Below are positions 10,028 to 17,323 of a DNA stretch of 64,000 nucleotides, piece after piece. The translations under genes were made by a program, and so were the position numbers. The notes below the pieces were generated by a model, which was not told the origin of the DNA, did not search any database, and was given only the letters and a program-made list of their open reading frames with translations. The DNA is taken from NCBI RefSeq assembly GCF_010685995.1, contig NZ_JAAGWK010000009.1, forward strand, positions 496,001 to 560,000, read 5' to 3'. The DNA is from Goekera deserti (GTDB lineage: Bacteria; Actinomycetota; Actinomycetes; Mycobacteriales; Geodermatophilaceae). Position 1 is the first letter of the stretch. Every line of letters starts with the position of its first letter.

Positions 10028-11004
10028 CCGCCCGGCCGCGGCCCGTGCCGGCGGACCGGCTGCCGCTCCCGCCCCGTGCCGGGGGCGTCGCGCCGGGACG
10101 CCGGTCGGTTCGGGAGTCGGGCCAGTGGCCCGTGGTCGGCCAGGAGTGCCCCGCGCCTGGCCGATGGCGGGCCACTGCCACGGGTGGTGGCCGACGAGTG
10201 GTGGCCGGGTGTGCGGCCGTCGGGTCAGCGCCTGCGCTGGTGCGTCACCTGATCCCCTCTGGGTCCGCAGCAGTGGCCCCTGGCCGGCCAGGAGCGCCCC
10301 GCGCCTGGCCGGCGTGGGGCCAGTGCCGGCGGGTGGAGGCCAGCGAGTGCGGCTACCGAGGGCAGTGCCTGCCTGGAGCGTCACCTGATCCCCGCTCGCT
10401 CCGCGGCAGTGGCCCCCTGTGAGCCAGGAACGCCCCGCGCCTGGCCGTCGGCGGGCCACCGCCGGTGGAAGGTCACTGGCGATGCGACTACCGGGCACTG
10501 GCTGGCGCCGGGCCTCGTCACGAGATCTCAGCTGGGTCATCGGCATTGGCCCGCGGCGGGCCAGTAGCGCCCGATCTCTGGCCGACGGCGGGCCAGTGCT
10601 GGTGAGGCGAGCGCCGCATGTCGACGGGTGAGCGCCAGGGGCGCCGGGCGCGCCGACCGCCCCGTGGCGGGATCCTGGCCTCAGCCCGCTCCGGAGTCGG
10701 CAGCAGTGACCCGTGGTCGGCCGGAAGTGACCCGCTCGTGGCTGTTGGCGGGCCACTGCCGGTGCTGGTCGCCGGCGAGCGAGAGGCTGCGCGGGGCAGC
10801 GGAGCGGGGCAACGCAAGTCGGCGGCGTAGGTCGGCGGCGTAGGGCGCTCGGGTCGGGCGCGATCGAGGTGACCCGGTCGTCGCGGGGGCATCTGCCCTC
10901 GGCCGGCCAGATGCGTCACCGGAGCGGCTGCGGGACGGTCCCTGCCTCCGGTTGTCCACAGGTTGCTGGGCCGTCCCCCACGAGGTGGGCCTGAGGGTCA
11001 GGGT
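10028..11004. repeat. Noncoding region with five 55-bp palindromic repeats (group 1)
   Basis: No convincing gene is seen in this 977-bp stretch. It holds five imperfect palindromes, each exactly 55 bp: 10123-10177, 10271-10325, 10407-10461, 10544-10598 and 10704-10758. Each begins CANTGRCCC or a close variant and ends GGGCCANYG. Most have a second, symmetric inner arm (GGCCAGG at offset 15-21, CCTGGCC at offset 33-39 in the first copy; a 10-bp inner stem GCCGGCCAGG/CCTGGCCGGC in the second). The flanks also repeat: GTCACCTGATCCC occurs near 10245 and 10380. This suggests tandem duplication of a unit of about 137 bp. A smaller inverted repeat, GCATCTG/CAGATGC, lies at 10889-10914. A single DnaA-box-like TTGTCCACA is at 10952-10960. 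Confidence 0.8.
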
Positions 11005-11925
11005 GTGGGCGTGCATGACGTCTCAGCTCTCGTCCGCCCGCGCGGGGCAGTGCGCACTGCCGAGCTCACCGATGTGACCAGCCCGCGCAGCGTCGGACGG
11101 TGGCTGGCCGCTGGGGAGCTGGTGCGACTGCACCCGGGTTGGGTCACCGTCCCGGACCTGGCCGCGGACTGGCAGGTGCGTGCTCGGGCCGCTGTCGGTT
11201 ACACCGCGGGCCTGCTCAGTCACGGCACCGCACTGACCGCCCACGGCCTGCGCCCACCGGACGCGGCCCCGCTGCACGTCACGGTCGCCCCGAGCAGGCG
11301 GGTCCGCTCGGGGCCCGGTCTCGTCGTGCACCGGACCGTCCGGCCGCCACGGGGACTGCTCGTCCAGGGCCTGCCCACCACGCCCGTCGAGCGGGCACTC
11401 GTCGAGGCGTGGGGCGCTGCCTGCTCGGCCGGGCGACTCCCCCGCGAGGTGGACGACGTACGGGCGGCGCTCCTGGAGGCGACGCGCGACCGCTACGCCC
11501 ACGTAGCGCTCATCGAGGAAGAGTGGACGGCGCGTCCGGAGCTGCCGGGCCGCGCCGAGCTGGGCGTCCTGCTCGGCCTGGTGCGGCGCGGGTGCCAGAG
11601 CCCACTGGAGCTGTACGGCGTGGTGCACGTGTTCGACCGGCTGACGGTCCCGGCGCCCCGGCAGCAGGTGCCGGTGGACGTGGGCGGACGGCGGTACGTG
11701 CTCGACGCCGCATGGGAGGACGTGAAGCTGGCCGTCGAGCTGGACGGCGCCGCGTTCCACGGCAGCCGTGAGCAGCGGGAGCGGGACCTGCGCCGCGACG
11801 CGGGGCTGGCGGCCGCAGGTTGGTTGGTCATCCGCTTCAGCCACCACCGGCTCACCACGGAGCCGGACGCGTGCCGCGCCGAGATCGAGGCCGCCTGGCG
11901 CGCTCGCCGTCACCTGCTCGGCTGA
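11005..11925 (+). CDS. DUF559-type protein: AbiEi-like winged helix plus Vsr-like nuclease domain
   Basis: A 306-aa protein with two parts. The N-terminal half (VSALVRPRGAVRTAELTD...RSVGRWLAAGELVRLHPGW) resembles the AbiEi/type IV antitoxin winged-helix domain. The C-terminal part is a Vsr/DUF559 restriction-endonuclease-like fold: YVLDAAWEDVKLAVELDG, then FHG, and RRDAGLAAAGWLVIRFSHH, supplying the D...E-x-D pattern expected of a PD-(D/E)xK core. Such proteins are abundant in actinobacteria and their role is not established. The start GTG 11005 has GAGGG 7 nt upstream; GTG 11011 is an alternative. It stands alone, flanked on both sides by arrays of the same 55-bp palindrome. Confidence 0.85.
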   Translation: MGVHDVSALVRPRGAVRTAELTDVTSPRSVGRWLAAGELVRLHPGWVTVPDLAADWQVRARAAVGYTAGLLSHGTALTAHGLRPPDAAPLHVTVAPSRRVRSGPGLVVHRTVRPPRGLLVQGLPTTPVERALVEAWGAACSAGRLPREVDDVRAALLEATRDRYAHVALIEEEWTARPELPGRAELGVLLGLVRRGCQSPLELYGVVHVFDRLTVPAPRQQVPVDVGGRRYVLDAAWEDVKLAVELDGAAFHGSREQRERDLRRDAGLAAAGWLVIRFSHHRLTTEPDACRAEIEAAWRARRHLLG

Positions 11926-12360
11926 CCAGCTTCCCGTGGCCTGCCACGATCACCCCGACCCTGTGACCACTCCTGGCCACCGCCCGCAAACCCGTCCGCG
12001 CGGTCCCGCCGGTCCACCCACGAGAGCACTGGCCCACCACCGGCCACGACCGCGACGGTCTTGGCCTCTCTCGGGCCACTGCTCAGGAACGGTCCGCCGA
12101 CCTCGCCCGCCGACCCAGTGGAGCATCGGCCCGCCACCGGCCACGACCAGCCCAATACTGGCCGCTCGTGGGCCAACCGCTCGGGAAACGCACACCCACC
12201 CCGCGCGAGCCCAGCCCCGGGGGAGCATCGGCCTGCCACCGGCCACCAATCGCCCGCGCGTGGCCGATCCCGGGCCACTGACCCGGACGCGCGGACGCCC
12301 ACCGGCCCCGAGGGGCGCGGCGGGCGTCTGCGTCAGCCCCTGGGGGCCGCGGGTCCGGCG
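11926..12360. repeat. Noncoding region with three more 55-bp palindromic repeats (group 2)
   Basis: No gene is seen between the DUF559 gene and clpX. Three palindromes, again exactly 55 bp, lie at 12027-12081, 12124-12178 and 12226-12280. They share the geometry of group 1: an outer arm CACTGGCCC or CATCGGCCC with GGGCCACTG or GGGCCAACC, and inner arms GGCCA at offset 15-19 and TGGCC at offset 35-39. The sequences between copies are not conserved. The same family therefore sits on both sides of one gene. Confidence 0.78.
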
Positions 12361-17091: not shown

Positions 17092-17165
17092 TCGGGGTGG
17101 CGGGATTCGAACCCACGGCCCCCCGCTCCCAAAGCGGGTGCGCTACCAAGCTGCGCTACACCCCG
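17092..17165 (-). tRNA. tRNA-Pro (anticodon TGG)
   Basis: A 74-nt cloverleaf: acceptor stem CGGGGTG/CACCCCG, D arm, anticodon stem CCCGC/GCGGG around loop TTTGGGA (anticodon TGG), and T loop TTCGAAT. The 3' CCA is not encoded. It lies about 100 bp upstream of tig, on the same strand. Confidence 0.96.
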
Positions 17166-17252: not shown

Positions 17253-17323
17253 GCGGGTGTAGCTCAATGGTAGAGCCCCAGCCTTCCAAGCTGGCCATGC
17301 CGGTTCGATCCCGGTCACCCGCT
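17253..17323 (+). tRNA. tRNA-Gly (anticodon TCC)
   Basis: A 71-nt cloverleaf: acceptor GCGGGTG/CACCCGC, D arm GCTC-AATGGTA-GAGC, anticodon stem CCAGC/GCTGG around CTTCCAA (anticodon TCC), and T loop TTCGATC. A genomic CCA follows at 17324-17326. It is oriented opposite to tRNA-Pro. Confidence 0.96.

Follow-up and report, generated by a model that had tools for sequence, protein, structure and literature searches.

REP/RAYT systems combine dispersed extragenic palindromes, some of them clustered, with a cognate gene that lies between two copies (PMC2817692, PMC3733652). Orthologous RAYT genes are described as staying in place while the palindromes that flank them change, remaining palindromic and alike (PMC2817692, PMC3733652). 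The RAYT protein is a HUH-domain tyrosine transposase of the IS200/IS605 kind (Pfam PF01797) (PMC2817692), and REP sequences are 20-40 bp long and carry a GTAG or CGTC tag (PMC3733652). The EDxHD enzyme I-Bth0305I is described as binding a target of nearly 60 bp in dimeric form (PMC3943268). Most homing endonucleases of this group come from phages and are associated with group I introns. VsrA of Caulobacter, a Vsr-like DUF559 protein, has been proposed to act in mismatch repair together with a cytosine methyltransferase to which it is linked (PMC12907096); the letters 'palindrom' are absent from the main text of that paper.

Most DUF559 proteins, common in the genomes considered here, are unexplained, and so is the origin of actinobacterial extragenic palindromes. 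No description of a repeat system made of a DUF559 gene and palindromes was found in the open-access literature searched, which was mostly titles and the starts of abstracts and, for some searches, those of the top-ranked papers, and no title among its DUF559 papers concerns repeats. Such a system may be described elsewhere, most subscription papers and bioRxiv being outside that literature.

The locus analysed lies in a 64,000-nucleotide stretch of the Goekera deserti genome (the window), where a DUF559 gene is flanked on both sides by nested palindromes. As in REP/RAYT systems, DUF559 palindromes are extragenic and present in many dispersed copies, and the gene is framed by two of them (in 95 of 167 genes the pair exceeds the 99th percentile of the null described below). 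The DUF559 genes at valS-clpX also resemble RAYT genes in that they keep their place while the flanking pair changes and its copies stay alike. Unlike a RAYT, the cognate protein combines an AbiEi-like part with a nuclease of the DUF559/Vsr type. The palindromes, unlike REPs, are 55-59 bp long, have a consensus that starts with AGC and lack the GTAG or CGTC tag. Close as the anatomy and dynamics are, these differences in enzyme, length and tag place the system outside REP/RAYT.

Other comparisons are likewise partial. With EDxHD homing endonucleases the compact window protein shares a related nuclease part (a profile match to the structure 3r3p) and conserved E/D/H/D columns; unlike them, its gene is intergenic and chromosomal and stands between two copies of its supposed target. 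Like VsrA, it has a DUF559 domain of the PD-(D/E)XK superfamily (PMC12907096), and no cytosine methyltransferase gene directly adjoins the window gene. Its N-terminal part is similar to AbiEi, the antitoxin of the AbiE type IV toxin-antitoxin systems. Unlike in AbiE, this part is fused to a nuclease domain in the window protein, and no second small gene that could encode an AbiEii toxin adjoins its gene, the neighbours being valS and clpX (named by reading their translations).

Nested palindromes in the window and in the genome

The first-pass annotation had reported eight palindromes of exactly 55 bp, five upstream and three downstream of the DUF559 gene, and both the positions and the length were confirmed. 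The 55 bp cores of the upstream copies lie at 10123-10177, 10271-10325, 10407-10461, 10544-10598 and 10704-10758, and those of the downstream copies at 12027-12081, 12124-12178 and 12226-12280; none is assigned a strand. When the window was searched with the half-site pattern TGGCC-N7-GGCCA-N15-TGGCC-N7-GGCCA, allowing up to 3 mismatches, 8 matches were found where 0.04 were expected, and none of 100 shuffled windows reached 8. Copy 3 has 1 mismatch to this pattern, and copy 5, the nearest upstream of the gene, has 3 mismatches. The inner arms noted earlier at offsets 15-19 and 35-39 are indeed present, as GGCCA and TGGCC. The symmetry of the outer arms is incomplete in copies 3, 5, 7 and 8, which break at least one pair (the free N position excluded). 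The tandem spacing, given earlier as about 137 bp, is 148, 136, 137 and 160 in the upstream group; in the downstream group the intervals are 97 and 102. The fold z-scores of copies 1 to 5 are -6.75, -7.00, -3.78, -4.41 and -3.60, that of copy 6, the nearest downstream of the gene, is -5.98, and those of copies 7 and 8 are -2.24 and -0.33. Against 200 shuffles each, six copies beat all 200, copy 7 beats 197 and copy 8 is at chance level. The palindrome can be described as a pair of 17-bp palindromes, the second starting 32 bp after the first. Over 55 copies the consensus is, in the main, AGC-R-K-TG-K-CCC, 5 free bases, CGGCCA, 15 free bases and the mirror image. An Rfam scan of the window matched the palindromes to no family; its sole matches were two tRNAs, whose genes are located at 17092-17165 (-) and 17253-17323 (+).

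About 43 copies of fixed length, single or clustered, occur at 15 loci of the same genome. With up to 3 mismatches allowed, the pattern was found 45 times in the 4.84 Mb assembly of 61 contigs, two of these being half-phase overlaps, and the pattern read backwards gave 22 at the same tolerance, so a single match with 3 mismatches is not proof of a copy; in 34 of the 45 there are no more than 2 mismatches. The constancy of length asserted by the first-pass annotation was borne out at the loci of this genome, where a loop of 15 gives 45 matches (up to 3 mismatches), a loop of 14 gives 3 and a loop of 16 gives 1. A covariance model of the eight copies, which had been proposed as a check, gave 56 matches in the genome, counted per strand, at E <=0.001. 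This model (R1) matched the home genome and 3 of 58 relatives. A second model (R2), built from 55 copies, had matches in 58 of the 112 family genomes (the home genome among them) and in 8 of 12 genera, so R1 had understated the spread of the palindrome. Among the R2 matches listed nearly all are 59 positions long. One off-register copy (L053:6335) was left out of the R2 alignment, and the half-phase overlaps (L047:5753, L053:6159) and duplicate rows were left out of the table of copies. Loss of length or pairing in copies elsewhere, or relatives devoid of such palindromes, was looked for as evidence against the family and did not occur.

The palindromes keep to the spaces between genes. None of 56 copies (43 from the home genome, 13 from a neighbouring genus) lies wholly within a called gene, and many follow stop codons. 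Gaps that hold palindromes are tandem in 15 cases, convergent in 12 and divergent in 2, and the other gaps of at least 100 bp at the same loci are tandem in 28, convergent in 4 and divergent in 16 (Fisher p 3e-4 for the convergent versus divergent bias); the gene calls behind these classes come from a simple codon-usage script and are rough. The earlier label of a REP-like element fits, as the palindromes are extragenic, dispersed, clustered and mainly 3' of genes.

Dispersal is not limited to the window type. Another palindrome type of the home family is scattered over 68 of the 112 genomes, with a control count of 0. In G180, a genome of another family, the sequence that flanks a DUF559 gene has 63 forward and 62 reverse half-element matches with up to 2 mismatches, again with a control count of 0. 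One type of family f8 has matches in 4 of 33 genomes searched, where just four single matches were found besides two flanking pairs. The genome G162 (e.g. L353, L357, L360) has 72 forward and 73 reverse matches to the variant ATGAAAGGCCCCTTCAT, which is unlike the pair around a close DUF559 homolog (L362), and a cognate gene for it was not found in G162.

Selection on a folded RNA, one of the possibilities raised at first, was not supported. Pairing holds in 89.2% of the cells of the palindrome and some columns covary. Most stem columns are near-invariant, the internal loop shows no covariation and there is no clear strand bias, and RNA structure was rejected as the selected feature. On the sense strand the upstream copies have 115 G-T and 102 A-C mismatches and the downstream copies 121 and 123; these near-equal counts favour DNA rather than RNA.

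The DUF559 gene and its matched pairs

The gene between the two arrays is located at 11011-11925 on the forward strand; its start is uncertain and may be the TTG at 10963 or the GTG at 11005 or 11011. It encodes an AbiEi-like N-terminal part followed by a DUF559/MTES_1575 (Vsr-type) nuclease domain. The N-terminal half has a PADLOC match to AbiEi (E 1.6e-10), and the C-terminal part matches Pfam DUF559 and MTES_1575, with two further matches below the cut-off; by Pfam the protein has no transposase domain. Two structures match a profile built from 21 homologs: the endonuclease-like protein 3hrl, at E 9.5e-6, and 3r3p, at E 5e-4, which is a mobile intron protein that we take to be I-Bth0305I. 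In 146 proteins E200, D232, E243, D245, H250 and D259 (numbered in the 304-residue protein that starts at 11011) are conserved at 96-100%, and in our reading the E, D, H and D positions of the EDxHD motif would map to conserved columns of the DUF559 protein. The ratio dN/dS is 0.10-0.49 in the 25 pairs listed. By these comparisons the protein is shown to have an apparently intact nuclease and to be under purifying selection. Searches of 72,556 plasmid and 50,697 phage records at E 1e-5 found no relative, and no close relative was found on viral contigs. The structure model of the protein alone has a pLDDT of 35.6 and is too poor for use.

Relatives of the protein were found by protein search in 100 of the 112 family genomes. 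In several relatives two palindromes lie about 1025 bp apart, and at L060, which corresponds to the site in the window, the order is clpX, palindrome, DUF559 gene, palindrome, valS (identified by similarity). The DUF559 gene at valS-clpX in relatives usually has a palindrome on either side. The centres that flank the window gene most closely, at 10731 and 12054, are farther off than in relatives. When nested palindromes of any sequence were searched for de novo, the type was found to vary by genome while the two copies at each gene were alike, and matched pairs were also seen at other loci of these genomes and beyond the family, both in further families and in certain groups more distantly related.

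The pairs were scored in 167 distinct genes by the best combination of palindromes on the two sides, taking the pairing of each and their likeness, and compared with 1500 pairs drawn from the flanks of genes of different taxon groups. The 95th percentile of this null is exceeded by 101 of the 167 genes and the 99th by 95. These 95 matched genes comprise 65 of 94 from the family, 22 of 47 from the rest of the order, 8 of 25 from other orders and classes and 0 of 1 from Streptomyces. The Streptomyces gene, a distant relative without a matched pair, was the one found in a scan of named genomes. Flanks of clpX, used as a control, exceed the two percentiles in 2 and 1 of 30 cases, and random 900-bp windows in 17 and 5 of 200, a rate somewhat above the nominal one yet far below that of the DUF559 genes. 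An earlier null, made from the flanks of all other genes, was dropped because genes sharing a type contaminated it (79 of 147 genes exceeded its 95th percentile). In the 95 matched pairs the median span from centre to centre is 1037 bp, and the downstream centre lies a median of 22 bp past the stop codon, so the downstream palindrome abuts or covers the stop. A matched pair at the 95th percentile is absent in 66 of the 167 genes. Three loci (L103, L110, L127) are unmatched by the score although the de novo search shows a pair, and the count of matched genes is conservative for this reason.

The idea that the window's own palindrome type is tied to all DUF559 genes failed. Of the seven DUF559 matches in the home genome one, the window gene, adjoins copies of this type. 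Other DUF559 genes of this genome (L003, L005, L006, L284) have palindrome pairs of their own types, as does L007 by eye, and L002 and L004 showed no palindrome pair. L003 (contig C56) is also located beside a different repeat, the repeated GGCCACTTCCGCGGAAAGGGCC. Elsewhere, the DUF559 genes at L200, L201, L203 and L204 adjoin tandem arrays of short repeats, not single palindromes. In a subclass of family f15 comprising 11 genes (L205, L361, L364, L366, L370, L373-L377, L379) an upstream palindrome stands alone with no downstream partner; it mostly has GGGACG...CGTCCC at its centre and lies 144-189 bp ahead of the gene match.

Gene and palindrome diverge together. Across 89 genes, which were chosen for a good pair, palindrome distance and protein distance are correlated (Mantel r 0.75), and 0 of 500 permutations gave a value as high. 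With the nuclease part held fixed, the N-terminal and middle parts keep partial correlations of 0.38 and 0.41; in the reverse comparison the values are 0.25 and 0.20. Linked inheritance of the gene and its flanks could by itself give part of the Mantel correlation. Beside the valS-clpX gene, column 4 of the palindrome is A in all 8 copies of the home genome and G in all 4 of the neighbouring genus, and among copies elsewhere 27 of 35 in the home genome have A there, against 0 of 9 in the neighbouring genus. In both genera, then, the distant copies appear from this column to follow the type of those beside the gene. In family f15 the palindrome differs among four close homologs, with the same changes in the two copies at each gene, and three of these homologs are 70-73% identical to the G180 protein. 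The window protein has 54% identity to its counterpart in G012, compared with 92% for clpX and 78% for the part of valS seen, so that of the proteins encoded at valS-clpX the DUF559 protein evolves the fastest. The matched pairs and the joint divergence of gene and palindrome across relatives argue for the earlier suggestion that the palindromes and the nuclease-like gene enclosed by them belong together.

A proposed role for the protein and alternative explanations

The reading that we prefer, with a probability of roughly one half, is that the gene and its cognate palindromes form a REP/RAYT-like system built on an unrelated DUF559 nuclease that would act in trans. It builds on the matched pairs, the fixed length, the types particular to each gene, the dispersed copies of the same type and the joint divergence, features shown by comparison at the level of sequence. 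Binding, dimerisation, cutting, the copying step and movement are what we infer for the DUF559 protein. Most likely it would bind one nested palindrome of 55-59 bp as a dimer in which either subunit recognises two half-sites, an outer and an inner one. Binding of this kind would explain both the fixed length and the four half-sites, and the length of the palindrome fits the target of nearly 60 bp of an EDxHD dimer. The bound protein would then nick or cut at the palindrome, and repair would copy palindromes into other gene-end gaps and, rarely, the whole palindrome-gene-palindrome unit.

We are more tentative, at rather less than even odds, about the wider claim of an actinobacterial class of selfish or domesticated repeats in which a Vsr/EDxHD nuclease, and not a HUH transposase, has captured the role of REP partner. 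Each gene of such a class would evolve its own 55-59 bp nested palindrome, cut in trans by a dimer, would stand between two copies of it and would seed genome-wide families with one specificity per gene. If this is true, a nuclease unrelated to RAYTs has also given rise to the REP-plus-cognate-enzyme lifestyle, and the DNA targets of many functionally uncharacterised genes lie right beside them, so that recognition, cutting and spread become directly testable. There would also be many natural pairs of long-site nucleases and their targets.

An alternative that we consider unlikely is that the palindrome is an operator. A regulator of the AbiEi kind would repress its own promoter through the upstream palindrome, and the downstream and dispersed copies would be its regulon or sinks. 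The AbiEi-type match of the N-terminal half agrees with this, as do the 11 f15 genes with an upstream palindrome alone and six f8/f15 units (L206, L207, L212, L281, L282, L283) in which the upstream palindrome is centred about 119-126 bp ahead of the gene. Most matched units, however, have a second copy at the stop codon, and the dispersed copies avoid divergent gaps (2 divergent versus 12 convergent), which is the opposite of what promoter operators do. A mere repressor would moreover need no invariant catalytic columns.

Homing by a selfish gene, for which a lone palindrome would be the empty target and repair of the cut would install the palindrome-gene-palindrome unit, seems improbable. 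Homing genes usually destroy their own target, and here the target is doubled. The relationship of the nuclease part to a mobile-intron protein is in its favour, and at one locus the gene occurs in either orientation. Lone palindromes lie +105 to +116 from the end of clpX (L265, L268, L313), as does the first palindrome in many occupied gaps, but they may equally be remains of gene loss, and in genus g4 (L313, L328) they have sequences of other types. The lack of matches in the phage and plasmid records, and of close relatives on viral contigs, also argues against it. It is very improbable that the palindromes are strong 3' hairpins for transcript ends to which the DUF559 link is secondary, for although the copies have strong predicted folds, avoid the inside of called genes (0 of 56 wholly within one), often follow stop codons and replace the clpX-end hairpin in several genomes (L253, L254, L118, L143), their fixed length with an internal loop that does not covary, the lack of a clear sense-strand G-T excess and the way in which palindrome sequence tracks the protein all speak against it.

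History of the valS-clpX gap

The proposed gene-palindrome system can be followed at a single place in many genomes. A clpX match was found in 98 of the 112 family genomes, and 88 distinct loci downstream of clpX were compared (the window, two sets of 30 and 40 fetched clpX loci, and the loci already in use, with duplicates removed). The DUF559 gene is intact in 62 of them, in the direction of valS in 40 and of clpX in 22; it is partial in 6 and was not found in 20, among them some rearranged gaps and some loci where the contig ends. Two loci (L255, L311) retain a gene remnant between two palindromes, and L339 has two palindromes 128 bp apart without a gene. Five short gaps of 161-186 bp (L265, L268, L313, L320, L328) contain one palindrome and the clpX-end hairpin, and a gap of 100 bp (L344) contains the clpX-end hairpin only.

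Genes in the clpX direction mostly have one palindrome type and those in the valS direction have others, with exceptions such as L252, the types being assigned by a crude pattern. This difference by orientation suggests that the unit may have arrived at valS-clpX more than once; an inversion in place could instead have produced the two orientations. In another family three units are located at the same place with homologous flanks, so that a unit can also stay put over long periods. Movement of whole units would be rare, since no transposition event was caught and these three share both place and flanks.

Some further observations concern the end of clpX. In genus g4 the short gap between clpX and valS (L313, L326, L328) has a further palindrome type with GGTCACCGCAC and no DUF559 gene. 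At L253, L254, L116, L118 and L143 the gene-flanking palindrome occupies the site where the clpX-end hairpin is found elsewhere, and it may serve as a terminator there. The clpX genes of G025, G017, G008, G009 and G032 (genera g9 and g10) have an in-frame TAG within the match, which could simply be a stop that comes earlier, close to where the gene ends.
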